Below, piece after piece: positions 11,879 to 49,265 of a DNA stretch of 59,502 nucleotides; within the stretch, counting starts at the first letter, position 1; the number at the start of each line of letters is the position of its first letter. Made by a program: the position numbers and the translations under genes. The notes under the pieces were generated by a model. It did not search any database, had not been told where the DNA came from, and saw only the letters and a list, made by a program, of their open reading frames with translations. This DNA comes from a virus: positions 1 through 59,502 of IMG/VR virus record IMGVR_UViG_3300043536_000280; one strand, given 5' to 3'.

Positions 11879-11881
11879 GGC

Positions 11882-13133: not shown

Positions 13134-13169
13134 ATGGTACCCCCGAGAGGCGATCTCGCAGGGAGATCA
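13134..13169 (-). promoter_or_regulatory. late-type promoter, TGATCTCCC-N21-TACCAT
   Basis: TGATCTCCC (13161-13169, minus strand) lies 21 bases before TACCAT (13134-13139); ATG 13126 follows after 7 bases. The TGA of the box is also the stop codon of the upstream coat-like gene, so the promoter is embedded at the gene boundary. Confidence 0.7.
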
Positions 13170-20904: not shown

Positions 20905-21783
20905 TCAGCCGCCCCCGAAGGCGTGGCTGGCGGCGGCCCGCGACGGAGTGAGCGGGGCGACCGGTGTGGAGCGGGTTAGCGTGCGGCCCAGCGCCGGGAC
21001 GCCCCCCGGCCGGAGCACGGCCAGGGTGTCGCGGGCGGCGCCTCGGCCCCAGCCCGTGCGGCTGATCGCGTAGGCGGTGCCGACCACCCCGATCACGGAG
21101 AGCAGGCCGAAGGCGATCACCGAGGCACGGGCCAGCGGTGCCCCCGGCCCCGGCGCCACCGGGATGAGCGGCGGGGCGCAGAGGCCGCCCAGGCAGTCCC
21201 AGTCGGCCGGGCAAGAGGAGACGCAGGTGCCCCCAGAGCACACGGAGCACTGGTCGCAGGCGGGTGAGCAGGGCACGATGCAGGCCCCGGCGCTGCACAC
21301 CGCAGGCGCGTGGCAGCGAGAGACGCAGGTGCCCGACTGGCAGGCGGAGCATGAGTCGCAGACGGGGCACGGCGGAGGGGACGGCGGGGCGGGGCCGATG
21401 GGCGGTGGCAGGCCCTGGATGGCGGCCCGCGCCGCCGTCATGTAGCCCTGGAAGGCGCCGCTCGTGTAGGTGGACCAGGGCGAGAAGGCCACCCCGCCGC
21501 TGGAGAGCGCGTAGCCGAGGGTGAAGGCGCAGGTGGGGTCGCTGGCGCACGCCGCCGTGCCCGGGTGGCAGGGTTGGAACACCTGGAGCACGCCGCAGCT
21601 CTCGCACCCCGAGGAGCAGCCGCAGCCGCAGCAGTCCGGGTTACAGCCGGTCTCGCACGCCCCTCCCAGCCCGCACTCCGCCAGCGAGATCGCGACGATG
21701 ATGCTGAGCGCCTCGAGGGCGTCCGTGTTGCGGAAGCCGGCGGCATAGGCGAGCTGGACGCGCTGGGCCACCGAGACGCTCAT
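20905..21783 (-). CDS. lysozyme-like muralytic protein with Cys-rich repeats and membrane anchor
   Basis: 292 residues. The N-terminal 105 residues fit a goose/transglycosylase-type lysozyme domain: AISLAECGLG with candidate catalytic Glu36, GVLQVF, and the typical WSTYTSGAFQGYM end. Many Cys are added compared with usual phage forms. Then come three Cys repeats (CPVCDSCSACQSGTC and CSPACDQCSVCSGGTC types), one membrane helix (VIAFGLLSVIGVVGTAYAI), and a tail ending APLTPSRAAASHAFGGG. A muralytic enzyme with a disulphide-rich stalk fixed in a membrane suits entry from a membrane-containing particle. ATG overlaps the CHAP stop (ATGA). Confidence 0.75.
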   Translation of the reverse strand: MSVSVAQRVQLAYAAGFRNTDALEALSIIVAISLAECGLGGACETGCNPDCCGCGCSSGCESCGVLQVFQPCHPGTAACASDPTCAFTLGYALSSGGVAFSPWSTYTSGAFQGYMTAARAAIQGLPPPIGPAPPSPPPCPVCDSCSACQSGTCVSRCHAPAVCSAGACIVPCSPACDQCSVCSGGTCVSSCPADWDCLGGLCAPPLIPVAPGPGAPLARASVIAFGLLSVIGVVGTAYAISRTGWGRGAARDTLAVLRPGGVPALGRTLTRSTPVAPLTPSRAAASHAFGGG

Positions 21784-24888: not shown

Positions 24889-25784
24889 CGGTAGCGGCGC
24901 ACGCGGTACCGGCCCCTCATCACCCGCTCCAACTCGCCGCCGCGCTCCAGTGAGGAGAGGTGGGTGAAGAGGCGGGTGATGTCGCTCTCCCCCAGCGCGT
25001 GGGCCACCTCGCGGGCAGCGAAACCACCGTCCAGGCGACGGCAGGCGTCGAGCACCATGGCGCGGGTGAGGATAGCGCCGTTGCTGAGGGTCGTGGCCCG
25101 CCGGCGCGCCGCCTCCATCTCCAGGTCGGGGAAGCTCGCGGCGAGCTCAGGGTCGCGGCCCCGGGGAGGATACGGCTGCCCGCCGTCGGTGGCGGTTGGA
25201 GTCTCTGGGAGCGCGGGTCGGGTCTCCGAGAGTTCGCCGGCGATCCGCTCCGCGTCCTCGGCGGGGATCCCGTGGCGGGCCTGGAGCACCTCGCTCATCA
25301 CCTCGCGCCGCGCCGGAGCACGGAACCGGCCGCGGGGCATGGCCTCGAGGTGGCCGATGGCGGCGAGGGCATCGAGGTGAGCCCGGACGGCGTCGTACCG
25401 GTCGGCCCCTCGCCAGCCGAGTTCCTCCTGGATGGTGATGGCGGCGAAGGCGCGCTCATGGCGGCGGCACGCCTCGAGGACGGCCAGGCGCTCCGATAGG
25501 TCAGGGATGGGTGGCGGCGCTGGATCGGCCTGGCCGCCCCCCTCATCGACGGGCGGTGCGGCTGTGCCCGTCACCGTCCCCGCCAGCCCTATCGAGGCCG
25601 GGCTGATCCGCTCGACCAACCCCCCCAGCAAGGCGCCCAGGCAGCGCGTGCAGAGTTCCATCCGCTCTTCACGGGCCTGGCCCTTGGGAGCCGTGCTGAC
25701 CCACCAGGCCAGGACATCCAGGATGTCCGGATCGCGGCCCGGGCGCTGGGTCGGGAAGAGTGGCGGTCGCGGTGCGGCCATCAC
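24885..25784 (-). CDS. winged-helix protein with a segment shared with the AAA ATPase
   Basis: 299 residues. Two winged-helix-like regions: about 95-155 (LAVLEACRRHERAFAAITIQ...LDALAAIGHLEAMPRGRFRA) and about 240-297 (VLDACRRLDGGFAAREVAHA...LSSLERGGELERVMRGRYRV). Between them RREVMSEVLQARHGIPAEDAER repeats, nearly residue for residue, part of the MoxR-like ATPase (RREVMSKVLQARHGVAEEDAER). A CxxC pair sits near residue 45. Probably binds DNA; replication accessory or regulator. Confidence 0.65.
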   Translation of the reverse strand: MMAAPRPPLFPTQRPGRDPDILDVLAWWVSTAPKGQAREERMELCTRCLGALLGGLVERISPASIGLAGTVTGTAAPPVDEGGGQADPAPPPIPDLSERLAVLEACRRHERAFAAITIQEELGWRGADRYDAVRAHLDALAAIGHLEAMPRGRFRAPARREVMSEVLQARHGIPAEDAERIAGELSETRPALPETPTATDGGQPYPPRGRDPELAASFPDLEMEAARRRATTLSNGAILTRAMVLDACRRLDGGFAAREVAHALGESDITRLFTHLSSLERGGELERVMRGRYRVRRYR

Positions 25785-26644
25785 GCCGCCCGCACCGGGT
25801 ACTCATCCCAGGTGCGGCCGTCAAGCTCCCGGCCGGCGGCGTGCTTGCCGACGCGCCGGAGCAGACAGCCGTCGAGCAGCGTCACGGTCGGTGGTCCGAG
25901 ATGGCCTGTCTGGTCACCCTCACCCCACCTCTCCATGGCGCGCCACTCCCCCCATTGCTTGAAGAAGAAGGGGACGCCCGCGCGCTGGCACTGGTCGCGG
26001 ATGTCACGCACCCAGTGCGGATGCATCGGACGCGCCCCGGGGCCGCTCTCGCCGCCCACGATCACCCAGCCGATCCCCTCCAGCGGGAGGTGGGGCAGAG
26101 GTCCCAGGAGCGGCTCCAGGCTCAGGAACCGCACTGCGGCTGGCGTGCGCTGGAGGTGGCGGATGCGGGAGTAGTACGCGGTGCTCTCGACGCTCACCCC
26201 AAGCCAGATGTTCGCGGGCGGCTCTAGGCTTTCGAGGACATTCCGGTAGATCTTTCGCCGGAGCAACTCGTCTCCCCAGGCCCTGCTGATGAGGCGCTCC
26301 ATCCGCTCGGCTCGCTTCGTGAGCACCTGGAAGGTGTGCCAGTCCGCCCAGACCATCACGTCCCACACCTGGGCGATGAACGCCTGGGGTACGTCGGCGT
26401 GGAAGAGGTCGGACATCGAGTTGACGAAGATCCGGCGGGGCCGCCTCCACCGAAGGGGCTGGTCGAGCCGCTCGGGCCGGAGCGTGAGGTCGAACCCCTG
26501 CTCGTAGGGGTGACCGGGGACGCCCCGGAACCGCTCGGCGAAACGCTTGGCGTAGCAGTGGTCGCAGCCCGGGGAGACCTCGGCACAGCCGGTGACCGGG
26601 TTCCACGATGCATCCGTCCACTCGATCACGCTCTTGTCGCTCAC
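25781..26644 (-). CDS. phage Gp37/Gp68 family protein (DUF5131)
   Basis: 287 residues from GTG (SDKSVIEWTDASWNPVTGC). The signature CAEVSPGCDHCYA (three spaced Cys), FVNSMSDLFH, WHTFQVLTKRAER, IWLGVSVES and VIVGGESGPGARP are all present; Cys spacing suggests a radical-SAM-like iron-sulphur site. The family is widespread in phages; its reaction is not settled. It is placed directly after the primase-helicase and before the winged-helix protein, an early replication setting. Confidence 0.9.
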   Translation of the reverse strand: MSDKSVIEWTDASWNPVTGCAEVSPGCDHCYAKRFAERFRGVPGHPYEQGFDLTLRPERLDQPLRWRRPRRIFVNSMSDLFHADVPQAFIAQVWDVMVWADWHTFQVLTKRAERMERLISRAWGDELLRRKIYRNVLESLEPPANIWLGVSVESTAYYSRIRHLQRTPAAVRFLSLEPLLGPLPHLPLEGIGWVIVGGESGPGARPMHPHWVRDIRDQCQRAGVPFFFKQWGEWRAMERWGEGDQTGHLGPPTVTLLDGCLLRRVGKHAAGRELDGRTWDEYPVRAA

Positions 26645-29415: not shown

Positions 29416-29544
29416 CCGCCGGAGCCGGTGTGCTAGGGGGCGGGAGGGCGTAGGATCGGGGGCCGAGGGGCCGGGGGATCTGAGACAGAATCCCGTCCAA
29501 AGGTCCTATCTCCGTGGGCAACCCCCGGCCCCCCAGAGCCCCGG

Positions 29545-29573
29545 GTGACATCCCCTCGGCCGTCTGACATAAT
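29545..29573 (+). promoter_or_regulatory. promoter GTGACA-N17-CATAAT for the toxin-antitoxin-like pair
   Basis: GTGACA at 29545-29550 and CATAAT at 29568-29573 with a 17-base spacer; the start region follows 7-9 bases later, so the mRNA is effectively leaderless. It diverges from the primase leader. Confidence 0.65.
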
Positions 29574-29582
29574 CGGTTCAAT

Positions 29583-29822
29583 GTGGAGCCGAGGATCGCT
29601 CAGTCGGCGCATCGGCACCGGATCTCGGTGCGGCGGATGCTGGAGGCGTACCGCAACACCGTGGTCGTCGTTCCCCGAGGCGAGATGAGGATGCATCTCG
29701 GCCACGACGCCAGCGGCGTGCCGCTCGAGGTCGGCGTGGTGGAGACCCGTGAGGGATCCGCCATCGTCCACGCGATGAGGTTGAGACGGGTCTGGCGCCG
29801 TCTCTACGCGAGGCACCTCTGA
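29583..29822 (+). CDS. putative small toxin of a type II toxin-antitoxin pair
   Basis: 79 residues from GTG. Strand-rich: RNTVVVVPRGEMRMHLGHDASGVPLEVGVVE then SAIVHAMRLR, a pattern shared with small BrnT/RelE-like or DUF4258-type toxins in high-GC bacteria (D-x-x-G-x-x-L-E-V-x-V, then I-x-H-A-x-x-x-R). Immediately followed, with overlapping stop/start, by a ribbon-helix-helix protein. Target cannot be told. An ATG at 29581 is in another frame and closes early. Confidence 0.6.
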   Translation: MEPRIAQSAHRHRISVRRMLEAYRNTVVVVPRGEMRMHLGHDASGVPLEVGVVETREGSAIVHAMRLRRVWRRLYARHL

Positions 29823-30103
29823 TGGCACTCACGCGCCGCCGTGACGGCATCACCGAGAGCGAGGCGGCCGTCTATGCCGACCGCTTCGAGGCCATGGGAC
29901 CTGACGACTTCGGGACGCCCGTCCCCGGGCCGGCGGCCTTTGCGGGACGGCGCTCGCTCTCCGGTGCGGGCAAGACGCCCAGAGTGACCCTCCGCCTCCC
30001 CGATCCCCTGCTCCGCCGCTACCGGCGGCGGGCGCTGCGGGACGGTCGATCCATGAGCGCCCTGTTGCGGGAGATCCTGGTTCGTCATGCCCCCCGCTCC
30101 TGA
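29822..30103 (+). CDS. ribbon-helix-helix antitoxin-like protein
   Basis: 93 residues. Residues 50-88 (TPRVTLRLPDPLLRRYRRRALRDGRSMSALLREIL, in part) give one strand and two helices of a CopG/RHH fold; the N-terminal half is a flexible region with a conserved-looking ADRFEAMGP segment, likely the toxin-binding part. Overlaps the toxin gene (TGATG). Probably binds its own promoter. Confidence 0.7.
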   Translation: MALTRRRDGITESEAAVYADRFEAMGPDDFGTPVPGPAAFAGRRSLSGAGKTPRVTLRLPDPLLRRYRRRALRDGRSMSALLREILVRHAPRS

Positions 30104-30230
30104 CCCGGCACCGACCGCCGCCAGCCCGCCGCCCGATCCAGAGCCGGAGTCGGCGACTTGTCGCCGCGCCTGGAATCGCGCCCTCAAGGAGGTCGCGCGT
30201 CGGGATCGCGACTACTTCGCGATGCACTGA
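30087..30230 (+). CDS. 47-residue Pro-rich/basic small protein
   Basis: Starts inside the antitoxin gene (ATG 30087). The first 22 residues are Pro/Ala-rich; the rest is basic and helical (CRRAWNRALKEVARRDRDYFAMH). The overlap and a clean stop favour a gene but no family is recognised. Downstream, two direct copies of GGTGTACGGTG (about 30271-30293) precede the next gene and may hold its promoter. Confidence 0.45.
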   Translation: MPPAPDPAPTAASPPPDPEPESATCRRAWNRALKEVARRDRDYFAMH

Positions 30231-30323
30231 AAGTGGCAATCGCGCCACCCCCTTGTCCTCCCGGGCCGGAGAGGTGTACGGTGCGGTGTACGGTGGCAAG
30301 CCAGCCGCCGGGAGGGTGCCGCC

Positions 30324-30740
30324 ATGGCCCGAGATGAGATCGGGATGGATGAGATCCGCGATCTCTACCTACAGCGTGCTCGCGCGGCGGGCCGGGAGCA
30401 CCACTTCTTCGACCGCCAGAGCAACCGGTTCTTCGGCAGCCGGTTCCCGGCCGTCGGCTACACCGGGCCTGGGGGCATCTACTTCACCGAGTCGCAGCAG
30501 CCTCCCGGCGGGGGCGCCAGGATCTTCCGGGTCAAGCGCCTCAATGCTAGCGGGGGCATGGATACCATCGACGGCCCGGTGGGCGACGTGTTCCACTCGT
30601 GGCCCTCGGGGGCGGCGGCCAAGGCGGCCGCGAGGCGGTTGGCGGCGGGCGGGACAGCTCGGCGCCGCGCGGTGCGTTACCACCGCCATCCCGCACATCC
30701 CTACTCGCACCCGGCCGCGACGCGGCATCGGAGGCGGTAG
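30324..30740 (+). CDS. hypothetical protein, His/Arg-rich C-terminus
   Basis: 138 residues. ATG preceded by GGGAGGG. N-terminal helix, then FFDRQSNRFFGSRFPAVGYTGPGGIYFTESQ, a strand-rich patch. The end, RRRAVRYHRHPAHPYSHPAATRHRRR in two parts, is a diverged form of the tail found on the genes that follow. First member of the tailed series. Confidence 0.6.
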   Translation: MARDEIGMDEIRDLYLQRARAAGREHHFFDRQSNRFFGSRFPAVGYTGPGGIYFTESQQPPGGGARIFRVKRLNASGGMDTIDGPVGDVFHSWPSGAAAKAAARRLAAGGTARRRAVRYHRHPAHPYSHPAATRHRRR

Positions 30741-30742
30741 CG

Positions 30743-31060
30743 ATGGCCGAGTACCCGATCGCCAGGCATGTGGACATGATGGGCGTGGTGGGACACACCC
30801 GTGACTGGCCACCTGGCACGGGTGGGCTGATGGTGCTCGTGGACGCGCCCGATGACCGTACCGCCCGCCGCTGGGCGGAGGCGGTATGGGAGGAGCACAT
30901 GACGGGCGAGCACAAGCGTCCAGAGGTGTACTTCCTGCGCGGGGACATGCGACCCGGTGGCCGCAAGAAGTTCGAGGTGCGCCTCCTGCCAGAGGGTCGT
31001 GCCCGACGCCGTCGGCGCCGTACTGCCCCCATCCACACCCACGGCCACGGAGGTCGGTAG
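30743..31060 (+). CDS. hypothetical protein with HxHxHGGR tail
   Basis: 105 residues, start two bases after the upstream stop (TAGCGATG). Middle: TGGLMVLVDAPDDRTARRWAEAVWEEH, a strand-helix pattern like a small ferredoxin-like fold. Ends RRRRRRTAPIHTHGHGGR. The GGAGGT coding the GGR end is the ribosome site for the next gene. Confidence 0.65.
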   Translation: MAEYPIARHVDMMGVVGHTRDWPPGTGGLMVLVDAPDDRTARRWAEAVWEEHMTGEHKRPEVYFLRGDMRPGGRKKFEVRLLPEGRARRRRRRTAPIHTHGHGGR

Positions 31061-31063
31061 CCA

Positions 31064-31203
31064 ATGTCTCAGAGCATCGCTGAGTATTTCCGGGCCGCAG
31101 CCTGGGGCTTGCCCAGCGCTATGCGCTGCAGCACGCCAAGGGCCGCCCCCGGGGCCGCGCCGCCCCGCTGCACAGCCACACCCATGGGAGGCGGCAGCGG
31201 TGA
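31064..31203 (+). pseudogene. frameshifted member of the His-tailed series
   Basis: ATG 31064 opens MSQSIAEYFRAAAWGLPSAM. The expected tail (YALQHAKGRPRGRAAPLHSHTHG) is present but in the frame shifted by one; that frame has no start codon and ends at the stop overlapping the next GTG. A single indel near 31095-31115 would rejoin them into a ~45-residue protein. Either a decayed gene, a sequencing error or a programmed shift. Confidence 0.5.
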
Positions 31204-31490
31204 GTTTCGTCCAGCGCCCCGCTAGGCGGCTGAGAGTGGGAGACGCGGTCCAGGTGTACCACCCGGGATCCGGGCACGCTGATCTGCGCGATGTCATCGC
31301 CGTGCGTCGGGATCTCGGGCGCGTGGTGGTCACGCTGGACACCGGCCGCGAGATCTCGTGGGCCGGGAGCACCCAGGTGAATGTCGCCGTCAAGGGACGG
31401 AGCCGGAGGACGCACTGGGCACTGCTCGCCTCTGGGCTGGCGCGCCGTCGCGCCGCCCCGCTGCACAGCCACACCCACGGAGGGCGGTAG
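31200..31490 (+). CDS. hypothetical SH3-like protein with HxHxHGGR tail
   Basis: 96 residues from GTG overlapping the previous stop. RLRVGDAVQVYHPGSGHADLR and GRVVVTLDTGREISW look like a small SH3/KOW-type barrel. Ends ARRRAAPLHSHTHGGR. Function unknown; the barrel could bind nucleic acid or protein. Confidence 0.6.
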   Translation: MSFVQRPARRLRVGDAVQVYHPGSGHADLRDVIAVRRDLGRVVVTLDTGREISWAGSTQVNVAVKGRSRRTHWALLASGLARRRAAPLHSHTHGGR

Positions 31491-31492
31491 CG

Positions 31493-31969
31493 ATGGGGCG
31501 GCGGATGGCGCGGATGGGGAGTCCCCGGAGCGTGCGCCAGCTGATGATGCTGGCACCCCGGCCGTGGGAGCGTGGTTTCGCGCTCATCTCTCAGGCGCCA
31601 GGGAGCCCAAGTGTCATCACCTGGGATCCCGCCTACGACTCGACCATCCTGGCCCAGGCGGATCCGATGATCGGCTTCTCGCGCACCGATGCCAAGGCGA
31701 TCAGGGCAGCCGTCGGACGCTCGCGCACCCGCAGCGCCCTGGTGAGGATCACTCATCTCGCCAACGGCAAGTGGCGCGGCACGGTGGTCGATGAGCAGGG
31801 CAAGCCCGTGGAGTTTCAGGACTTCAGCACCGAGGCCGCCGCGCAGCGGTGGAAGCGCGAGGAGATGAGGGAGACGCATCTCCTGGGCCGGAGGTCACTC
31901 CCGGTCCGCTCCGGCGCGGCCCGTCGCCGTCGTGCCCCCATCCACCACCACGCCCACGGGGAGCGGTAG
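31493..31969 (+). CDS. hypothetical protein with HxHxHG tail
   Basis: 158 residues. Basic N-terminus; central alpha/beta region with FALISQAPGSPSVITWDP and GKWRGTVVDEQGKPVEF; a helix with EAAAQRWKREEM. Ends ARRRRAPIHHHAHGER. ATG two bases after the upstream TAG. Confidence 0.6.
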   Translation: MGRRMARMGSPRSVRQLMMLAPRPWERGFALISQAPGSPSVITWDPAYDSTILAQADPMIGFSRTDAKAIRAAVGRSRTRSALVRITHLANGKWRGTVVDEQGKPVEFQDFSTEAAAQRWKREEMRETHLLGRRSLPVRSGAARRRRAPIHHHAHGER

Positions 31970-31971
31970 CG

Positions 31972-32253
31972 GTGAGCTTCTACGTCCACCATGTCACTGC
32001 GAGCGGCCACGAGGGCTGGACTGGCCCCATCCGCTTGCCGGGACAGGCGTATCGCGAGGCCGTGGCCTGGCGGCGGATGGGTGACACGGCGGACGTGGTG
32101 GAGAGCACGCCCGAGCTGAGGGCCACCGTGCGCCGCTGGCAGCATGAGGCGGATCTTCGCCACGGGCGCACCCATCGTAGCGGCAAGAGTTCCTATGGGC
32201 ACCTTCGCAAGCGCGCCGCCCCGCTGCACACCCACGCGCACGGGGGGGGGTAG
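31972..32253 (+). CDS. hypothetical protein with HxHxHGGG tail
   Basis: 93 residues from GTG. SFYVHHVTASGHEGWTGPIRL then a helix (YREAVAWRRMGDTADVVES) suggest a compact alpha/beta protein. Ends KRAAPLHTHAHGGG; a run of G replaces the usual GGR codons. Confidence 0.6.
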   Translation: MSFYVHHVTASGHEGWTGPIRLPGQAYREAVAWRRMGDTADVVESTPELRATVRRWQHEADLRHGRTHRSGKSSYGHLRKRAAPLHTHAHGGG

Positions 32254-32258
32254 CGGCG

Positions 32259-32948
32259 ATGGCCCAGATTGAGGTCAAGCGGCTCAGCCCAGCGATCCGC
32301 TCTGCGCTCGCCAGCGTGAAGTACGGGGCCAGGGACATCAGCGTCGTGCCTGCCACCGAGGTCTCGCTGACGGTGAGCGGTGGGGCGGGCCAGCGCGGCT
32401 TCGCCACCCTGGTCGACATGGTGACCGGTCGCCACGAGACCATGATGGGGTCGTGGGGCGGGGCCAATATGTTCACCCCCCGGAACCGGGTGGATCTGGA
32501 CACGACGAAGCGGACGCTGCCCCCGGGGACGGTGCTGATAAAGGGCGAGGAGGGCTACCCGCGCACCTTCGCCACCATCTACGCGCACCCCGATCTGCTG
32601 CAGAGCCTCAGCCTCGCGGCCCCGGCGGCGCCGCTGAGCGACGTGGAGGGGAAGGTGCTCAACATCTATGGCGGGATCAAGAGCGGGTACCGCCAGGATG
32701 AACTCCGCCGCAAGGACATCTCGCCGCAGGCGGCGGCGGCGGCGGTGCGGTCGCTGATCGCGGCCGGCTACCTAGCCCAGAACAAGGCGGGGGCGGTGTC
32801 GATCACGACCGCCGGCAAGAACGCCCGCCCCTCCGGCTACTACCGCCGCCGCCCCTCAGCGCTCCAGGTAGAGCTCGCTCGGCGATCCCGCCAGGCCCGG
32901 CAGCAGCCCCGGCACCGTGACGGCCGGTTCAGCAAGCGGAGGCGGTAG
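32259..32948 (+). CDS. conserved phage-type protein with winged-helix C-terminus
   Basis: 229 residues. The block WGGANMFTPRNRVDLD followed by LPPGTVLIKGEEGYPRTFATIYAHPDLL recurs, as I remember, in many phage contigs. Residues 130-185 (LSDVEGKVLNIYGGIKSG...AVRSLIAAGYLAQNKAGAVSITTAGKNAR) form a winged helix. It ends RHRDGRFSKRRR and lacks the His tail, although it sits in the middle of that series. Confidence 0.72.
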   Translation: MAQIEVKRLSPAIRSALASVKYGARDISVVPATEVSLTVSGGAGQRGFATLVDMVTGRHETMMGSWGGANMFTPRNRVDLDTTKRTLPPGTVLIKGEEGYPRTFATIYAHPDLLQSLSLAAPAAPLSDVEGKVLNIYGGIKSGYRQDELRRKDISPQAAAAAVRSLIAAGYLAQNKAGAVSITTAGKNARPSGYYRRRPSALQVELARRSRQARQQPRHRDGRFSKRRR

Positions 32949-32950
32949 CG

Positions 32951-33439
32951 ATGGCTGAGCTGGTCACGGTCAAGCGCAACAGCATCGAGGCTCGGACGAT
33001 GTGGGATCGGGCCGTCTCGGCGCGCAGCCACACCCTGGAGAACTACTTCATCGGCCAGGACGTGGACATCCCCGCCGAGCACGCGTGGTACACGAGGGTG
33101 CTCTCCTGGGGCGGCCACGGGCCGCGCATCGTCCGCAGCGGGGACACCTACACGATCCACTATCACAGCAACCACTGGGTGGAGTTGAAGGTGGCCCCGG
33201 GGCGCTCGAGGAGCCGGGCCTCGGAGCGGATCGCCTCGGTGCCCGGGCCGGGCCAGGTGGTGCGGCTCGCCAACGGTGAGCGCTGGCAGCACAAGTTCGG
33301 GGCGATGTGGGAACTCCTCGGCCCCGTGCACCGCGAGATCCATGGCGAGGGCAACTTCTCGCGCCACCTCCGGCTGGTGGGTGGGCGTGCTCGCCGCCGC
33401 ACCGCCCCCGTCCACACCCACGCGCACGGAGGGCGCTAG
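32951..33439 (+). CDS. hypothetical protein with HxHxHGGR tail
   Basis: 162 residues. Aromatic/His-rich core (YTIHYHSNHWVELKV, WQHKFGAMWELLGP) with strand pattern. Ends ARRRTAPVHTHAHGGR. ATG two bases after the upstream stop. Confidence 0.62.
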   Translation: MAELVTVKRNSIEARTMWDRAVSARSHTLENYFIGQDVDIPAEHAWYTRVLSWGGHGPRIVRSGDTYTIHYHSNHWVELKVAPGRSRSRASERIASVPGPGQVVRLANGERWQHKFGAMWELLGPVHREIHGEGNFSRHLRLVGGRARRRTAPVHTHAHGGR

Positions 33440-33441
33440 CG

Positions 33442-33804
33442 ATGGCGATGCGGGAGAACGACCGCAACAAGGCGATCACCGCCCTGCGCGCCGGGCTGCG
33501 CCGCCGCAGCACCAAGACCTGGAGCGTGCGCGGCGGCCGGGGCACGGCCTGGGGTTGGATCACGGTGACCGCCCCGCCATCCCGGCTTGACCAGTACGGG
33601 GGCATGAGCAAGGCGGATCAGGAGGAACTCTCCCGCATCTTCGGGGAGCATGTGCACCACCAGGGCATCTCCATCCCGGCGAGCAACCCCTACCGCGAGG
33701 CCTACGTTGAGCGGGTGCTGCACGGCTCGACCAGTCTCAACCCGCAGCCGTACTGGCGCCGCCGCGCGGTGCCCGTCCACACGCACGCGCACGGAGGGAG
33801 GTAG
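33442..33804 (+). CDS. conserved phage-type protein with HxHxHGGR tail
   Basis: 120 residues. The blocks ALRAGLRRRSTKTWSVRGGRGTAWGWI, LSRIFGEHVHHQGISIPAS and YREAY match a small protein family common in phage and plasmid contigs, where it normally ends without a His tail. Here RRRAVPVHTHAHGGR is appended. That contrast suggests the tail is added to unrelated proteins rather than part of one family. Confidence 0.75.
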   Translation: MAMRENDRNKAITALRAGLRRRSTKTWSVRGGRGTAWGWITVTAPPSRLDQYGGMSKADQEELSRIFGEHVHHQGISIPASNPYREAYVERVLHGSTSLNPQPYWRRRAVPVHTHAHGGR

Positions 33805-33806
33805 CG

Positions 33807-34181
33807 ATGGCGGTGGAGCGGAAGCCGCGCGTGGATCCCCTGGTGCCAACTCGGGCCATCGACTTCCACCTCGGCCGCGTCCATGTGGGCACGCCCGATC
33901 AGGAGGTGGCGCGGGAGATCGAGGCGGCCATTGACAAGGCGGCGGCCAGGGAGCCGCGCTGGACCCCGGCGATCCGTCGCCAGGCGGTGCAGTACGCGAT
34001 CTGGCGCCACCACCAGGATCTCGCCGAGTACCGGCGGGTGATGGGCGGCGGCCACGGGATCATCACCACCGCTGGCCATGCCCGCACCCGCACCGATGTG
34101 CGCTGGGAGCAGGTGCACGCCGCCGAGCGGGCGGGCCACCCCATCGCCCATCCCCGCGCCTTCGTCTTCGGAGGCCACTGA
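33807..34181 (+). CDS. hypothetical protein
   Basis: 124 residues. VARGIEAAIDK-like helix (residues 35-50), then RRQAVQYAIWRHHQDLAEYRRVMGGGHG and a His-containing C-terminus (HPRAFVFGGH) without the standard tail. Start follows GGAGGGAGG encoded in the upstream tail. No family recognised. Confidence 0.6.
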   Translation: MAVERKPRVDPLVPTRAIDFHLGRVHVGTPDQEVAREIEAAIDKAAAREPRWTPAIRRQAVQYAIWRHHQDLAEYRRVMGGGHGIITTAGHARTRTDVRWEQVHAAERAGHPIAHPRAFVFGGH

Positions 34182-34480
34182 TGCCCGCCTACCGGGGGTA
34201 CCAGATCGAGTACGTCACCCACGGTGAGGCCGTGATCGCGGTGATCCGCGACGGGGGGGGCCGGGTCGTCCACCGCTCGCAGGGGGCGGCGGGGACCAGG
34301 CGGACGCAGGCCCAGGCGGGCGAGGCGGCGCGGCGCTGGGTGAAGTACCACGAGGGGCGCGGCCGCCCCCGCCCCCGCCTCGGCGAGGCGGATCTGAGCG
34401 CCGAGGAGCGCCGCGAACTGGAGCGCCGCCGGGTGGCGGCGCGGGCCCAGCGGCGCGATCGGATGGGCCGGTTTGGCTGA
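34181..34480 (+). CDS. small DUF-type protein with basic C-terminus
   Basis: 99 residues. A small three-strand/one-helix N-terminus (YRGYQIEYVTHGEAVIAVIRDGGGRVVHRS) resembling dsRBD-like or single-domain phage proteins, then a long Arg/Glu helix ending AQRRDRMGRFG. Overlaps the upstream stop by one base. Confidence 0.6.
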   Translation: MPAYRGYQIEYVTHGEAVIAVIRDGGGRVVHRSQGAAGTRRTQAQAGEAARRWVKYHEGRGRPRPRLGEADLSAEERRELERRRVAARAQRRDRMGRFG

Positions 34481-34500
34481 TAACACGGGAGGCTGAAGAC

Positions 34501-34755
34501 ATGGCTCGCACGCGCTGGATCCAGGAGGCCCTGAAGAAGGGCAAGCCGGGCGCCCTGCACCGGCAGCTGCATGTCCCCCAGAGCGAGAAGATCCCGGTGG
34601 CCAAGCTCCGCGCCGCCGCCAAGGCGCCAGGCACGAAGGGCAAGCGGGCGCGGCTCGCGCTGACGCTGCGCCGCATCGTCCAGGGCGAGAGCCACGCCAA
34701 GAGGTCGGCGGCGGCCAGGAAGGGATGGGCGACCCGGCGGCGGCGGGGACGGTAG
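34501..34755 (+). CDS. conserved basic phage-type protein
   Basis: 84 residues, strongly Lys/Arg-rich. WIQEALKKGKPGALHRQLHVP then KIPVAKLRAAAKAPGTKGKRARLALTLRR matches a small basic family frequent in viral contigs. It probably binds the genome or acidic protein in the particle. Ends RKGWATRRRRGR. Confidence 0.75.
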   Translation: MARTRWIQEALKKGKPGALHRQLHVPQSEKIPVAKLRAAAKAPGTKGKRARLALTLRRIVQGESHAKRSAAARKGWATRRRRGR

Positions 34756-34761
34756 GGGGCG

Positions 34762-35169
34762 GTGGTAGCGGACACCCGGCCCGCTGAGCTCGCCACCCTG
34801 GGTCGGCGCATCGCCGAGGCCCAGGGCTTCAATCCCCGCGACCCATCGGTCAACTGGGAGGCATACGGGCGCGAGGCGGAGTACCGTATCAAGCGGCGCC
34901 AGGGGGTGCCGGATCCTGCGAAGTTCTCCCGCATCCCGCCGGCCCCCCTGGCATCCTCTCACCGGGCTACCTCCTCTCGCGGCGGCGGCGCGGCCGCGCC
35001 GCCCCCCCACCGGGTGCGGATCGGTGGCCTGGAGTTGAGCTTCATCGAGGAGGAGCCCGCCCGCAACCGTCCCCAGCGCGCCCGCCGCAAGGGCGAGCGA
35101 ACCACCGGGCGGTACCGGAGCCGCCACGCGGCGGCCATCCACCACCACCGCCACGGCGGCAAGCGGTGA
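34762..35169 (+). CDS. hypothetical protein with HHHRHGGKR tail
   Basis: 135 residues from GTG. A helical N-terminus (ELATLGRRIAEAQGFNPRDP), a Gly/Ala/Pro linker, a short strand pair (VRIGGLELSFIEEE) and a basic end RSRHAAAIHHHRHGGKR. The stop overlaps the next GTG. Confidence 0.6.
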   Translation: MVADTRPAELATLGRRIAEAQGFNPRDPSVNWEAYGREAEYRIKRRQGVPDPAKFSRIPPAPLASSHRATSSRGGGAAAPPPHRVRIGGLELSFIEEEPARNRPQRARRKGERTTGRYRSRHAAAIHHHRHGGKR

Positions 35170-35735
35170 GCGGGCGCCCCACCTACCACCTGACCGCCGC
35201 AGAGCGCGACGCGATGGCGGCGGTGTACCTGGAGGGGCGGCTGACGACGCGCCAGATCGACCGGCTCTTCGGGGTCTCGGAGGGGATCTGCCGCGACCTC
35301 GTGAGGATCCGTGGCCTGCCCCTCCGGGGGCGCGGCTGGCACCCGCCGCTCGAGGCGCGAGCCTGCCGGGTGGAGGGCTGCACTCGGCCGGGTGGCTGGT
35401 ACCGGGGCGGCAGTGGGTACTGCCATGTCCATGGGGATCGCATCCGCCTCCACGGCGAGGCTGGGCCACCCGAGATCCGGGGGGCGGTGATGCCGGAGCA
35501 TGGCACCGTGGCCCGCTACGCCCGGGGCTGCCACTGCAAGCCGTGCATGGTGGGCGCCGCCGCCCATGCCCGCGTCCTGCACGCACGCCGCCGCCAGCGC
35601 GGCCTCCCCCCGGGCGATCCGCGCCATGGGCGGAACGGGTACAGCAACTGGGGCTGCCGCTGCCCGATCTGCTTCCTGGACCACGCCCTCCGCTGCCACG
35701 ACGCTTACCTGCGGCGGCGGGGGAGGGCGGCGTGA
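35166..35735 (+). CDS. HTH and zinc-binding protein of actinophage type
   Basis: 189 residues from GTG. Residues 10-45 (AERDAMAAVYLEGRLTTRQIDRLFGVSEGICRDLV, in part) form a homeodomain-like HTH. Two Cys clusters follow: ACRVEGCTRPGGWYRG and YARGCHCKPCMVGAAAH, then YSNWGCRCPICFLDHA. The HGT...Y.RGCxCxPC block is common in actinobacterial phage regulators. Probably DNA-binding. Confidence 0.75.
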   Translation: MSGRPTYHLTAAERDAMAAVYLEGRLTTRQIDRLFGVSEGICRDLVRIRGLPLRGRGWHPPLEARACRVEGCTRPGGWYRGGSGYCHVHGDRIRLHGEAGPPEIRGAVMPEHGTVARYARGCHCKPCMVGAAAHARVLHARRRQRGLPPGDPRHGRNGYSNWGCRCPICFLDHALRCHDAYLRRRGRAA

Positions 35736-36310
35736 GCCAGCCGCGCGACCCCCGGGGCCGGTTCGCCTGCGTGGTCTCCTATCCCCGGCTCCGCACCTCC
35801 AGGTGCGGGTGTGGCGGCGGAGGGAGCCACCCCTGTCCGGTCGGCAAGCGGCTGCGCGGGATCCGGGAGGCGGCCCGGCGCGCCTTCGTCCCCCTCCCCT
35901 ACACCGACGAGGACGTGGAGGAGATCGAGCGCGACCTCTACGGGATCGAGCAGGAGGGCGAGGCCCTCCGCCAGGCGCTGGACTGGACCAGCGCCCAGAT
36001 CGAGGCCAAGGGCTCCAAGAGCCACCGGTCGCGGCTCGCCCGCCTGGAGCACGCCCGCCAGGGCGGCTTCACCGCGCGCGACGTGTACGGCGAGGAGTCG
36101 GAGCGGGGGTATGAGGAGCTGCTCGAGGAGCGCCGCCGCATCCGGGCGCACGCCGACCATCTGAGGCGGGAGACGGCCCGGCTCTCCGGGGAGCTGCTCA
36201 AGGCGCGCCGGCAGCTGGGCGGGACGATCAGCCGGTCGCTGCTCCGCCGCGCCGCCCGGGCGGGCGTGGCCCGCCGCCGCCCCGTGCCCCTGCACGCGCA
36301 CCATCATTGA
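35732..36310 (+). CDS. coiled-coil protein ending LHAHHH
   Basis: 192 residues from GTG (SQPRDPRGRFACVVS). One CxC pair near residue 27, then about 120 residues of charged coiled coil with heptad Leu/Glu/Arg. Ends ARRRPVPLHAHHH, the last and truncated version of the shared tail. The gap 36311-36434 carries a weak promoter-like pattern (AACTCCCC 36396-36403, GATGAT 36423-36428) before the next GTG. Confidence 0.62.
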   Translation: MSQPRDPRGRFACVVSYPRLRTSRCGCGGGGSHPCPVGKRLRGIREAARRAFVPLPYTDEDVEEIERDLYGIEQEGEALRQALDWTSAQIEAKGSKSHRSRLARLEHARQGGFTARDVYGEESERGYEELLEERRRIRAHADHLRRETARLSGELLKARRQLGGTISRSLLRRAARAGVARRRPVPLHAHHH

Positions 36311-36434
36311 CCGATGCGTCGGTACCCTCTTCGTGGCCAGGATGATCGACAGGCGCGATCTGGATCGCACCATCGCCTGGCGACGGTAACGGGGGAACTC
36401 CCCGGCCCCACCCGTGGGATGGGATGATCCGGCC

Positions 36435-37265
36435 GTGAGCAGGTTCGGCTATTCCCAGCAGGTGGCCATGGCGGGCGTGATCGAGGAGGGGCTCTTCGGC
36501 CCCACCGGGATGTACTGGCGGGTGCCCACCAAGGCCCAGGCGCTCATGGACGCCTGCCCGCTGGACGTGATGGCCCAGCCCTCGCGGGCCGACCTTGAGG
36601 CGCTCCAGCGGGCGGGGACGCCGGTGGGCCCGGGCGACCGCCTGCTCGGTCTCTACACCCGGGTGGGGAGCCCCAACGACCCCGTCCACCACTGCCAGGT
36701 GTACGGCGGCCCGGTGGACGAGGTGGGCGAGGACCCGGTGATGGTCGCCTATCACGAGTACGGCCACCTCATCTACGACGACCCCGACCACCAGGGCGTC
36801 CGGTTCGAGATCGCCTATGGGGTGACCATCTCCGAGACCGAGATGGAGACCCGGCTGCGGGCCTCGGGCCGGCTCAGCGAGGAGAGCGCTCCCGGTTGCG
36901 GCGGACCGACCTGTCAGCTGGAGGGCGAGCTCGCCCGCAGCATGGCGGCCCTGGACGGGCTGCGCCAGCGTGCCCACATGCAGCACAAGATCCCGCTCGG
37001 GCTGGGCGGCCGCATCCCAGAGACCAGGACGCGCCTCGAGGTGGCCCGGACCTGGCTCGCCCAGGCGGGGGCGCTGATGCCCGACCGCCAGGGCCAGGTG
37101 CGGACCATCGACCGGCTGATCGCCGCCTCCCAGGAGGCGCTTCAGGGCGACGATCTCAGCCCCGACCAGATCGGCGAGGCGTACGCGGTCGTGTACCGGG
37201 CCTGGGATCTCTCGTACGACTTCGGCCACGCCTACCAGCTCCGGACCCGCTACGGAATCGGCTGA
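36435..37265 (+). CDS. hypothetical protein
   Basis: 276 residues; GTG 36435 is preferred because it lies 6 bases after GATGAT, as at the late-type promoters, but ATG 36414 in frame is possible. Contains VYGGPVDEVGEDPVMVAYHEYGHLIYDDPDHQGV, where HEYGH has the HExxH form and could be a zinc-protease site. The C-terminal half is helical. If the HEYGH motif is real, this is a second metallopeptidase in the window. Confidence 0.6.
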   Translation: MSRFGYSQQVAMAGVIEEGLFGPTGMYWRVPTKAQALMDACPLDVMAQPSRADLEALQRAGTPVGPGDRLLGLYTRVGSPNDPVHHCQVYGGPVDEVGEDPVMVAYHEYGHLIYDDPDHQGVRFEIAYGVTISETEMETRLRASGRLSEESAPGCGGPTCQLEGELARSMAALDGLRQRAHMQHKIPLGLGGRIPETRTRLEVARTWLAQAGALMPDRQGQVRTIDRLIAASQEALQGDDLSPDQIGEAYAVVYRAWDLSYDFGHAYQLRTRYGIG

Positions 37266-44090: not shown

Positions 44091-44569
44091 CGCGGGTGAG
44101 GACGCTGGAGGAGCGTTTCTGGCTCAAGGTCAGTAGGGACGGCCCGCTCCCGTCGCTGCGGCCTGAACTAGGGCCGTGCTGGCTCTGGACGGCGTCTCTC
44201 GACACGAAGGGTTACGGCCAGCTCAACGCGGGCAGACGAGGGGCCGGGATGGTGCGGGCCCACCGGGTTGCGTATGAATTGGCCTATGGCGCCCTGCCTG
44301 CGGGCCGGGAGTTGGATCACCTCTGTCGGCGCAGATCCTGTGTCAATCCGGCACATCTCGAAGCCGTCAGTCGCGCCGAGAACATGAGACGCGGCCTGAT
44401 CGGGGAGGGACGCCGCCGCTGGGTCGCCTCCATCACCCATTGTCGGCGCGGACACCCCTATGACCCCGCCAACACCTATCACCATCCGCCCCACGGCACG
44501 CGCATTTGCCGCCAGTGTCAGCGGGATCGGGAGCGTCGCAAGAGGGAGGCTGTGCCGTGCGCTTCGTGA
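44087..44569 (+). CDS. HNH homing-type endonuclease
   Basis: 160 residues. CWLWTASLDTKGYGQ, AHRVAYELAYGALPAGRELDHLCRRRSCVNPAHLEAVSRAENM and a C-terminal HCRRGHPYDPANTY...CRQCQRDR zinc region match the phage HNH_3 family. The enzyme cuts DNA and often spreads as a free-standing homing endonuclease. Its codon use is less GC-rich than its neighbours, which supports transfer. It stands next to an intein-containing gene. Confidence 0.88.
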   Translation: MTRVRTLEERFWLKVSRDGPLPSLRPELGPCWLWTASLDTKGYGQLNAGRRGAGMVRAHRVAYELAYGALPAGRELDHLCRRRSCVNPAHLEAVSRAENMRRGLIGEGRRRWVASITHCRRGHPYDPANTYHHPPHGTRICRQCQRDRERRKREAVPCAS

Positions 44570-46410
44570 TGCCCTACACCCACCTCAGCGAGGAGGTCAC
44601 CGCCCGCCTGGATGCCAGCGGCCACCCGTTCGAGCGCTGCGATGTCTCGGGCTCCATCTTCGACTACTCGGCGCTCATGGAGGGGCTCTGGCAGCCGTCC
44701 ACCCCGGGGATCGTGCTGGTGGAGCACGACGTGGTGATCGAGCCGGGCTCTGTGGATGAGTTGCTCGCCTGTCCCGAGGACTGGTGTGCCTTCCAGGTCG
44801 CCTACCTGGGCCAGGCGGAGGGCCATCCCGGGCTGGGCTGCGTCAAGTTCAGCCAGGCACTGATCGCCCGCCACCCCGATGCCATGGAGCTCGCTGGCCA
44901 GATCTGGGACGGCGAGCACCAGCCCCGGCACTGGTGCCTCACCCCCGACGCGCGGGTGCTGACCGCAGATGTGCGCTGGCGTCCTCTGGGGGAGGTGAGG
45001 GTGGGCGACCAACTCATCGCTGGCGAGGAGGAGCGCAGCCACGCCCCGGCCCGCCCGTACCGGCGCTACGTACCCTCCACCGTGGAGGCGGTCGCCACCA
45101 CCCGAGCGAAGGTGCTGCGCATCGTCCTGGAGGACGGCACCGAGCTGCGGGCGACCGAGGATCACCGCTTCCTGGGGAGCCGTCCCCAGACCCGGGGCGA
45201 GATGCGCTGGCTCCGGGTGCGGTGGCGGGCGGCTCGCGACCTGGTGCCGGGGCGGGATCTTCTGTACCGGTACCTCACCCCCACGGCGCCGCTTGAGACC
45301 CGGGATGCGGGCTATCTCGCCGGTCTGTTCGATGGCGAGGGCTCCATGACCCGCAGCGGTCAGGATCTGAGCTTCTCCCAACTTCCCGGCCCCACCCTGG
45401 ATGCGGCGGTGGCGACCATGACCCGCCTCAACTTCCGGGTGCATGTGGCCCCGAGCGGGGCTGGCCCACGCCTCGGTCGGCGGGTGCAGGTGGCCAGGAT
45501 CAACGGCGGCATCGCTGAGCGGCTGCGCTTCCTCGCCGCCGTGAGACCGGAGCGGCTCATCGCGAAGCTGGACATCCAGGCGCTCGGCTGGCTGGAGGCC
45601 CATGAGCGGCTGCGCGTGGTGGCGGTGGAGCCCGCTGGCGAGCAGGACGTGGTCCAGATGCAGACCAGCTCTGGCACCTATCTCGCCGAGGGCTTCCTCT
45701 CCCACAACTGCCGGATCGACGCCTGGCTCCAGCAGCTGGTGCTGCCCGGCGTGGAGGCCTCCACGCTCGGCGCCAGCGGCTTCACCCCCGACCCCGCCGT
45801 CCCCCGGGAGACCCAGCACGTCCACGGCCCGCCGCTCCGCCACCTCCGCGACGACGGGCGGCCGCCCATGCCCAGCCACGGCTGCGGGCCGAAGGTGGGC
45901 TGCCTCATCGCCACCGACGGTGAGCTGATGCCCAGCAGGTTCGTGGGAGCGCTCATCAACGTCCAGGTGCCCCCCGGGGGCTGGCACAAGGCGGTCGCCA
46001 TGGACCCGTCCGGGACCGGCGCCGGGGTGGCCCACGCCATCCGAGGCTTCCTCAACATCCCCGGCTGGCGGCGGCTGATCCTCTGGCACCCGTCCGTCGC
46101 CGGCCACCCCGACGCCGTCGTCCGCCACGCCCGCCACGAGGTGGCCGTGGTCACGGGCGTGGAACTGGGGAGCGAGCGCGCCGACTTCGGCATGGTCAGC
46201 TTCGAGCGCTCGATCCTGGAGCGCTGGCCGCCCGAGGCGCTGCGCTTTCTCGGCATCCACCGCGGCCATCCCGACCCCGAGACGGTCATCACCACCACCC
46301 GGCTGCTGGGCGGCGATGTCCAGAAGGACACCGAGATCCCCCTCGTCCACGTCGCCGCCGAGGCTCGCCAGGACGGCATCCTCCTGCCCGGCCGGGACTT
46401 CCACCGATGA
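44557..46410 (+). CDS. phage glycosyltransferase-like protein interrupted by an intein
   Basis: 617 residues from GTG. The extein (residues 1-126 and 385-617) begins FVMPYTHLSEEVTARLDASG and includes LVEHDVVIEPG, CPEDWCAF and GLGCVKFS, a block order I recall from phage contigs for a GT-like protein whose next conserved part reads W-x-x-D. The intein sits exactly between W126 and CRIDAWL. The C-terminal extein half continues with a second alpha/beta domain (KAVAMDPSGTGAGVAHAI). After splicing the mature protein would have about 359 residues. No stop or frame change, so the intein appears functional. Confidence 0.82.
   Translation: MRFVMPYTHLSEEVTARLDASGHPFERCDVSGSIFDYSALMEGLWQPSTPGIVLVEHDVVIEPGSVDELLACPEDWCAFQVAYLGQAEGHPGLGCVKFSQALIARHPDAMELAGQIWDGEHQPRHWCLTPDARVLTADVRWRPLGEVRVGDQLIAGEEERSHAPARPYRRYVPSTVEAVATTRAKVLRIVLEDGTELRATEDHRFLGSRPQTRGEMRWLRVRWRAARDLVPGRDLLYRYLTPTAPLETRDAGYLAGLFDGEGSMTRSGQDLSFSQLPGPTLDAAVATMTRLNFRVHVAPSGAGPRLGRRVQVARINGGIAERLRFLAAVRPERLIAKLDIQALGWLEAHERLRVVAVEPAGEQDVVQMQTSSGTYLAEGFLSHNCRIDAWLQQLVLPGVEASTLGASGFTPDPAVPRETQHVHGPPLRHLRDDGRPPMPSHGCGPKVGCLIATDGELMPSRFVGALINVQVPPGGWHKAVAMDPSGTGAGVAHAIRGFLNIPGWRRLILWHPSVAGHPDAVVRHARHEVAVVTGVELGSERADFGMVSFERSILERWPPEALRFLGIHRGHPDPETVITTTRLLGGDVQKDTEIPLVHVAAEARQDGILLPGRDFHR
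44935..45708 (+). mobile_element. intein with LAGLIDADG-type endonuclease motif (258 aa)
   Basis: Starts at Cys127 (CLTPDARVLTADVRWRPLGEV, block A in part), has block B in LRATEDHRFLG (the TxxH form), a DOD motif GYLAGLFDGEGS in the centre, and ends with block F/G YLAEGFLSHN followed by extein Cys. All splice residues are present: Cys1, the block B His, terminal His-Asn and Cys+1. Only one LAGLIDADG block is obvious, so endonuclease activity may be lost or dimeric. Confidence 0.93.
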
Positions 46411-48174: not shown

Positions 48175-48603
48175 ATGCGAAAGCTTGACTTCGTCCCGCC
48201 GCTGCTCGGCGTGGGCACCGGCCTGGCCGACGGTGCCGTGGTGGAGTGGGTCGCGCCCCACTTCGCGCAGGCCCCGGGCGTCTTCCGCCTGGCAGAGCTG
48301 GTCGTCGGCGCGCTGGGTCTCGGCCTGGAGTGGGACGACGACCTCAGCTACGGGCTCATCACGGTGGCGGCCAACCGGCTCTCCGGCCAGGTGATCCCCG
48401 CCATCGCCCAGCGCAACGCGGGAACCCTGCTGGCCGCCGACATCACCCCGGCAAGGGGCCGGGGGGTGCGGGTGACGCGGCCCAAGGGTGCCGTGGCCGC
48501 CGGCTGCACCGCCTGCGGGGCCGTGAAGCCGCCCCCGGTGCCCGTGGTCGAGAACATCCCCTACCCGGGCGGCGACATGCGGTCGGCGCCGGGGCTGCTC
48601 TGA
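48175..48603 (+). CDS. membrane-associated protein with SAPGLL C-terminus
   Basis: 142 residues. LLGVGTGLADGAVVEWVAP and LAELVVGALGLGLEW are hydrophobic segments; the C-terminal part is soluble with one CTAC pair and ends GGDMRSAPGLL. The opening LLGVGTG recurs in the next protein (VLGVGTG), so the two are probably distant relatives; both end with the same tip motif. Confidence 0.6.
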   Translation: MRKLDFVPPLLGVGTGLADGAVVEWVAPHFAQAPGVFRLAELVVGALGLGLEWDDDLSYGLITVAANRLSGQVIPAIAQRNAGTLLAADITPARGRGVRVTRPKGAVAAGCTACGAVKPPPVPVVENIPYPGGDMRSAPGLL

Positions 48604-48663
48604 GCGCTTCCCCCTCAAGGGGGGTCGGCGGCCCTCCTCCGGCTCCCCGAGGGGAGATGCGGG

Positions 48664-48698
48664 CGATCTCCCACAAGATTTCCGCCCTCGGCTACGAT
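48664..48698 (+). promoter_or_regulatory. late-type promoter, CGATCTCCC-N20-TACGAT
   Basis: Box at 48664-48672, TACGAT at 48693-48698. Unlike the others there is no start codon 7 bases later; instead the transcript would begin with a perfect hairpin. Confidence 0.65.
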
Positions 48699-48706
48699 CC
48701 AGGCGT

Positions 48707-48757
48707 CACGCTTTGGGAGCGCGCATCCGGTCTCGGCCAAGCCCGTCCCAAAGCGTG
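48707..48757 (+). ncRNA. 5'-terminal leader hairpin (12-bp perfect stem)
   Basis: CACGCTTTGGGA (48707-48718) pairs perfectly with TCCCAAAGCGTG (48746-48757) across a 27-base loop. The expected start of transcription is about 48705, so the stem is at the very 5' end of the mRNA. About 70 bases remain before the GTG at 48828. It could stabilise the mRNA, control translation or be a processed small RNA. Confidence 0.55.
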
Positions 48758-48827
48758 AGGCCCCCGGGGAGGCGGCTCCCAGAGCATGGCGACATGTCAG
48801 CCATCGCCATCTGGAGGTCGTGGGGCC

Positions 48828-49265
48828 GTGTACCGCTTCCCATTCGCCGTCCTCGGCACCGAGGCCGTGCTCGGCGTCGGCACGGGCCTCTCCCGGTCCT
48901 GGGACACCGACCGCTGGCAGCGCAACCCTGCCAACACCACGGGCACGCCGACTCCGCCGCTCTCGTTCATTGAGAACTCCGGCCTGGATGTCGGCATCGG
49001 CGCGCTGCTCGTCGGCCTGGTCGCCCAGATCGCCGAGTGGCCGCACTCGGACGTCTCGGAGTCGCTCATGGGCGGTGGCGCCCTGGTCGTCGCCGAGGTC
49101 ATCACCACCGCCATCGGCCAGCGCGGCAACGCGGGGTACATCACCCCGTCGACGCCCGCCAGCGGCCGGGTCGCGGGTCACCGTGGTCACGAGCGGGCGG
49201 CGGGGCTGGCGGCTCCGGCGGCCGCGCGTCCATTCCTCCAGGTCAGCCAGCCCGGCCTCCTCTGA
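48828..49265 (+). CDS. membrane protein with SQPGLL C-terminus
   Basis: 145 residues. GTG 48828 is preferred because GGAGGTCG lies about 8 bases upstream; ATG 48786 in frame would add 14 residues. Hydrophobic segments: FAVLGTEAVLGVGTGL, VGIGALLVGLVAQIAEW and MGGGALVVAEVITTAI. Ends RPFLQVSQPGLL. Probable virion membrane protein. Confidence 0.6.
   Translation: MYRFPFAVLGTEAVLGVGTGLSRSWDTDRWQRNPANTTGTPTPPLSFIENSGLDVGIGALLVGLVAQIAEWPHSDVSESLMGGGALVVAEVITTAIGQRGNAGYITPSTPASGRVAGHRGHERAAGLAAPAAARPFLQVSQPGLL

Follow-up and report, generated by a model that had tools for sequence, protein, structure and literature searches.

A candidate exchangeable C-terminal tag, rich in arginine and histidine, on unrelated small proteins of one viral gene series

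The internal proteins IPI, IPII and IPIII of phage T4 carry a common capsid-targeting sequence (PMC9026906), and T4 internal proteins are described as being injected and as blocking restriction systems (PMC12373910). In T4 the tag sits at the N-terminus, measures about 10 residues and is cut off by gp21, and its role in capsid targeting is proven. Encapsulin cargo-loading peptides are also short peptides that sort cargo into a shell. Such cargo-loading peptides are C-terminal. In lambdoid phages, short sequences known as gene-boundary linkers are repeated at the junctions of a variable operon and are thought to act as recombination DNA. Here we describe a tail of the form RRRxAP[ILV]HxHxH that ends small proteins encoded between 30,324 and 36,310 of IMG/VR virus record IMGVR_UViG_3300043536_000280, a linear record whose whole stretch of 59,502 bases (71.7% G+C) was analysed and is called the window below; g numbers follow its codon-based gene call, which gave 102 genes.

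Variants of this motif end nine reading frames of the window (stops at 31060, 31203, 31490, 31969, 32253, 33439, 33804, 35169 and 36310), the tag being C-terminal in all nine and g66 having LHAHHH close to its stop in place of [ILV]HxHxH. An earlier note on this DNA had counted ten tailed genes; nine frames with the motif are confirmed, and the tenth, g53 (stop 30740), where the motif pattern gives no match, ends in RRRAVRYHRHPAHPYSHPAATRHRRR, plausibly a diverged copy of the tail. The tag occurs far more often than chance would give. In a set of 104 proteins, made up of the 102 genes of the window plus two that only the relative G002 has intact, 9 carry the motif: eight belong to the window and the ninth is the unbroken G002 counterpart of the gene that stops at 31203. 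Shuffling the last 25 residues of each protein (2000 trials) gave a mean of 0.047 carriers and a maximum of 2, and random draws from the proteome a mean of 0.0095 and a maximum of 1. At the DNA level all 9 window matches to the tail pattern lie inside the series and a reversed control pattern gave 1 match; a looser His pattern also marked the frame ends 20576, 20597 and 27563, none of the tail form. The tagged series is made of short plus-strand genes separated mostly by a few bases, but is not strictly consecutive as had been claimed, since five intervening genes (32259-32948, 33807-34181, 34181-34480, 34501-34755 and 35166-35735) carry no His tail. The tails, and the gene that follows the series, lie as follows:

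30660-30737, plus strand: diverged His/Arg-rich tail RRRAVRYHRHPAHPYSHPAATRHRRR of g53 (30324-30740), body DUF7447
31004-31057, plus strand: His tail RRRRRRTAPIHTHGHGGR of g54 (30743-31060)
31150-31200, plus strand: His tail remnant RGRAAPLHSHTHGRRQR of g54b, body broken here and intact in G002 (L011, L141)
31443-31487, plus strand: His tail RRRAAPLHSHTHGGR of g55 (31200-31490; GTG at 31200 is a possible start)
31922-31966, plus strand: His tail RRRRAPIHHHAHGER of g56 (31493-31969)
32206-32250, plus strand: His tail RKRAAPLHTHAHGGG of g57 (31972-32253)
33392-33436, plus strand: His tail RRRTAPVHTHAHGGR of g59 (32951-33439)
33757-33801, plus strand: His tail RRRAVPVHTHAHGGR of g60 (33442-33804)
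35119-35166, plus strand: His tail SRHAAAIHHHRHGGKR of g64 (34762-35169), whose homologue in the relative G003 has a second tail type
36272-36307, plus strand: His tail RRRPVPLHAHHH, without GGR, of g66 (35732-36310), the last tagged gene
36435-37265, plus strand: g67, a protein with an HEXXH motif (HEYGH), after the tagged series

The bodies in front of these tails are unrelated by sequence, as the earlier note had proposed: in an all-against-all blastp of 21 tail-trimmed proteins (g51 to g69 and the two of G002) the lowest E value was 0.019, for g54b against g56. In Pfam, the body of g53 belongs to DUF7447 (27.4 bits against a cut-off of 24.1); the two G002 genes and 13 further series proteins from the window passed no cut-off. 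A PHROG scan that took in 45 of the 102 window genes gave a match to helix-turn-helix DNA-binding proteins for g65 (E 7.7e-7), a weak match of residues 36-98 of the tail-less g61 (33807-34181, plus strand) to the portal profile phrog_146 (E 0.0041), and matches at E 0.009 to 0.07 for g53, g57 and g66; other series members had no match at E 0.1. Searches of g56, g59, g60 and g66 against phages found nothing. The gene starting at 33442 (g60) had been assigned to a family that lacks the tail elsewhere; PHROG and phage searches with it found nothing, and Pfam offered no more than a hit below threshold (E 0.098). It is g53 that fits this description, given that the DUF7447 proteins of a Podoviridae record, Streptomyces phage NootNoot and Burkholderia phage BcepSauron (bit scores of 71 to 95, the cut-off again being 24.1) have no such tail.

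Comparison with close relatives adds to this picture. G001 (55 kilobases) is nearly identical to the window across the shared parts, and G002 (71 kilobases) is about 98 to 100% identical to it across most of them; the aligned tails of the window and G002 differ at two bases, one changing R to H in the Arg run of g56 and the other being synonymous in g66. The 381 extra bases of G002 encode portions of two genes, both unbroken in that relative: one ends in GRARRRKRR with no His tail, the other in RGRAAPLHSHTHGRRQR, a His tail. The window and G001 most likely lost this stretch by deletion between short repeats, and both genes are therefore broken in the window. The tail at 31203, previously described as shifted, is indeed present, though rather as the remnant of g54b broken by the missing 381 bases.

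The contig of G003 (60 kilobases, 85% identical at g87) begins inside g67 and stops after g48, leaving the series outside. A g64 homologue lies elsewhere on that contig (42% identity over 118 residues) and is conserved up to the tail, where a longer basic tail like that of g58 replaces the His tail (83.8% DNA identity over 37 bases, a single case). It is followed by a paralogue of g67, and g67 itself follows the tagged series in the window. The tail thus seems, from three phage DUF7447 proteins without it and a g64 homologue with a different one, to be a module added to the bodies, in line with the earlier note. That note had regarded the same genes without tails in relatives as telling against a tag. 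Such cases exist for part of the series, in the g64 homologue and the three DUF7447 proteins, and they point to a modular, exchangeable tag rather than to evidence against one; no divergent relative spanning the entire series was found. The second tail type, and ends that resemble it, are located here:

32832-32945, plus strand: second tail type SGYYRRR...RQARQQPRHRDGRFSKRRR of g58 (32259-32948), akin to the one on the g64 homologue of G003
34421-34477, plus strand: end ERRRVAARAQRRDRMGRFG of g62 (34181-34480), resembling the second tail type
6155-6274, minus strand: g11, a peptide of 39 residues, THSHPHKH...RQPRNRLGQFKRK, with a stretch rich in His and the ending QPRxxxGxF

The form QPRxxxGxF ends g58, the G003 g64 homologue and g11, is found near the start of g66, and occurs in a looser version at the end of g62. 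g11 is 79% identical in G003; likeness alone suggests that it is linked to the tails.

The tail consists of two layers. Usually the final codons run GGA GGG CGG TAG CG ATG into the next gene, and the Gly-Gly codons were found where the Shine-Dalgarno site of that gene is expected, as had been noticed before. A similar junction recurs at 30729-30751 and 32937-32959 (96% identical), read in another frame as RRR, in neighbours without [ILV]HxHxH. On the other hand, g66 keeps RRRPVPLHAHHH without GGR and lies over 100 bases from the next start, and because of this we separate GGR, as a ribosome-site layer, from RRRxAP[ILV]HxHxH. The idea that the whole tail is a tag can therefore be kept in part: GGR is accounted for by the predicted ribosome site of the next gene, and RRRxAP[ILV]HxHxH alone behaves as a putative peptide tag.

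This shorter tag is modestly better kept as peptide than as synonymous DNA. Over nine tails and 12 codons (the g66 window takes in its stop codon), the proportion of synonymous differences (pS) was 0.48 and that of nonsynonymous ones (pN) 0.24. Entropy at codon positions 1, 2 and 3 was 7.12, 4.93 and 8.89 over 11 codons (third-position p=0.04), and 1.49, 1.77 and 4.35 over the seven fixed residues (third-position excess p=0.0077). Pairwise identity was 0.61 in the coding frame vs 0.52 and 0.40 when read in the remaining frames. These values lend modest support to the earlier suggestion that selection acts on the peptide, and by the pS/pN and third-position tests the tail DNA is not equally conserved at synonymous sites.

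One peptide on many bodies, its copying and its replacement by another tail form the pattern expected of a docking or targeting tag. We hypothesise that RRRxAP[ILV]HxHxH is an exchangeable C-terminal targeting or docking tag on small unrelated accessory proteins of one gene series, a reading that, judged from sequence, we find about evenly poised between right and wrong. The tag would be added as an exchangeable module to otherwise unrelated small accessory proteins, and a single partner, either a structure of the virus or its DNA, could bind it and collect the tagged proteins at a common site. That site would most likely be the forming particle, so that tagged proteins could be carried along with the genome and act on the host infected next, like the internal proteins of T4, and g67 could potentially cut off the tag in the manner of the T4 prohead protease. 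Both the particle destination and the peptidase role of g67 are guesses from analogy and gene order. As in T4, one short peptide is found on several divergent small proteins of one virus, the bodies changing while the tag stays, and a peptidase is possibly nearby (here g67, an HEXXH protein of unassigned family); g67 has HEYGH and a conserved downstream Glu, with an HEVGH paralogue in G003, and gave no Pfam match over the cut-off and no PDB sequence match by profile. Unlike the T4 tag, the one described here is C-terminal and Arg/His-rich and is carried by about ten proteins; being at the opposite protein end, the tail system is not a member of the T4 capsid-targeting system. It also differs from encapsulin cargo loading in that no HK97-type shell was recognised among the genes scanned, many bodies of one gene series are marked and the peptide is Arg/His-rich, and from lambdoid linkers in that conservation is higher for the peptide than for the synonymous DNA. 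If the tail were a true loading or docking signal, it would mark a whole set of viral accessory proteins and predict one common destination for them, and would represent an independent C-terminal counterpart of the T4 capsid-targeting sequence, a natural sorting tag. The tail can be used as bait for its partner, which makes the question directly testable.

Several observations weigh against a targeting tag of this kind. The T4 tag, its best-known parallel, is N-terminal. Synonymous mismatches number 85 where 125 are expected, so codons are less varied than random, the copies are therefore related and their likeness partly reflects recent copying; the peptide-level support is modest, coming from nine short tails of common descent compared without a phylogeny, with p=0.04 over all 11 codons. 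High C-terminal charge is not exclusive to the series. DUF7447 relatives sit among small phage genes, one of them near an exonuclease gene and recT, which fits an intracellular role too, and the helix-turn-helix-like g65 is equally compatible with such a role. Moreover, the PHROG scan found no terminase or capsid family among the 45 of 102 window genes that it covered, and phrog_2, which we take to be a terminase family, had no match in three records (possibly fragments). In contrast with T4, no tailed-phage head gene was recognised in that scan beyond the weak portal match of g61. The candidate capsid genes g86, g25 and g87 were placed in no family, a PDB sequence search with the g86/g25 profile gave no match, and AlphaFold confidence was low (predicted local distance difference test score 34.6 for g87 alone and 38.5 for g86 with six sequences). 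The particle destination is a guess because phrog_2 was not found and these candidates went unrecognised. g86 (49354-49947, plus strand) and g25 (13167-13898, minus strand) are distant paralogues, about 32-37% identical, with no family match. Their lack of a family, several small putative membrane proteins and the failure to find a terminase are a hint of a non-tailed virus. We can further imagine, as a doubtful extension, that in a non-tailed or unrecognised virus a C-terminal Arg/His tag, exchangeable with the second type, would serve as a general signal loading a changing set of anti-host proteins into the particle with the genome, perhaps with trimming by the neighbouring HEXXH protein, in a system whose evolution was independent of the T4 one.

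The strongest rival, possible though in our judgement on the unlikely side, is that these are generic nucleic-acid-binding tails, basic ends that would keep small regulators attached to viral DNA or RNA through their charge and would need no specific receptor. Net charge over the last 25 residues averages +6.1 in 16 series proteins (two of them from G002) vs +0.4 in the 88 others (p=4e-7), and a charge of at least +5 is reached by 12 of the 16, including some without the His motif, vs 11 of the 88. A ribbon-helix-helix gene (29822-30103) lies just upstream of the series, and g65 would also suit such a role. Charge alone, however, leaves unexplained the fixed order AP[ILV]HxHxH, which extends to the last gene, and does not account for two separate, defined tail types.

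We consider it improbable that the peptide is a by-product of a DNA or RNA junction element serving translational coupling or gene-reshuffling recombination. Such an element would agree with the last bases GGAGG..CGGTAGCGATG being common to neighbours without the HxHxH motif, with the 29 identical bases shared by the tails of g54b and g55, and with a weak consensus stem in which Arg codons pair with the Shine-Dalgarno site. The g53 junction, too, folds somewhat better than its shuffles (z -1.74). Nevertheless, the tag persists in g66, which has no nearby start downstream; the junctions at 30740 and 32948 are the same but lack [ILV]HxHxH; and third codon positions vary more. Predicted folds of seven of the nine tail junctions (g54-g57, g59, g60 and g66) do not outscore shuffled sequences (z from -1.11 up to +1.62), the covariation term of the consensus stem is unfavourable (+0.95, eight aligned sequences) and Rfam gave no match within 29500-36600; the g58 junction had z +0.73. 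A structured RNA element at the tail was rejected on these grounds of fold, covariation and Rfam. A repeat of the CRISPR (clustered regularly interspaced short palindromic repeats) type was likewise rejected, the copies being irregularly spaced (137 to 1362 bases) and placed at the ends of open reading frames. A metal-binding or degradation tag, in which HxHxH would bind zinc or nickel, or a host protease would read the tail and keep early proteins short-lived, seems very improbable: the HxHxH spacing suits metal coordination and the HEXXH-type gene g67 follows the series, but metal binding leaves the Arg stretch and AP[ILV] unexplained.

As to how widely the proposed tag occurs, two scans of 2.9 million IMG/VR virus contigs were run, with patterns that overlook diverged tails and with records very close to the window possibly left out. 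The strict pattern gave 6 stretches (3 from G001/G002 and 3 single matches elsewhere) and the looser one 36 (33 from other contigs, with one match each), and in both scans multiple copies were found only in G001 and G002. Reading 36 other IMG/VR loci for C-terminal tails, we found none with two; in one (L179) the motif is within 14 residues of the stop in a doubtful frame, and another (L006) has an unrelated His-containing end. A scan of bacterial and archaeal genomes gave at least 119 loci; in 12 of the 119 listed, [AV]P[ILVM]HxHxHG lies at most 22 residues from the stop, in one frame each. Among 80 of these loci, only one, from a Methanoculleus metagenome-assembled genome (L058), has several matches; it was rejected as a tail series and reads as a repeat array translated VHPHVHGER. 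An apparent relative of g59 (L012; 40 residues, 43% identical) falls within a frame of 1194 residues and was taken to be a chance match. We recognised no description of such a tail in the literature searched. The primase gene g50 has matches in both close relatives and in three more distant, partial relatives, and the contigs of five further relatives (G004-G008) do not span the series. In a host search, 396 genomes of one phylum yielded a single weak match, partial (53 positions) and at E 1.1e-4; 395 genomes of one class and three chosen genomes yielded none.

Other C-terminal likenesses occur in the window. A separate C-terminus, S[AQ]PG[IL]L, is common to g23 and g24 (11477-13126, minus strand) and to g84 and g85 (48175-49265, plus strand), for example as ALAVSAPGIL and LQVSQPGLL; a similar form is kept in G003 and is also found on L150:1153-1716. 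The string PLTPS recurs in g24, g41, g82 and g96.

Elsewhere in the window, four minus-strand genes resemble an RNA ligase (RLIG1; 15722-16351), a nucleotide-sugar epimerase (14841-15725), phrog_2045 (25781-26644) and a lysozyme-like SLT_3 protein (20905-21783). g79 (44557-46410, plus strand) contains an apparent intein with a LAGLIDADG-type motif, its Hint, intein and LAGLIDADG matches all being below cut-off; its residues 118-385 match a stretch of a Mycobacterium plasmid gene annotated as DNA polymerase, and its homologue in G003 has the same length of 617 residues. Finally, g96 (55364-56014, minus strand) contains GIGSDRSQGSG, which presumably recalls the Gly-rich loop of RAMP proteins.

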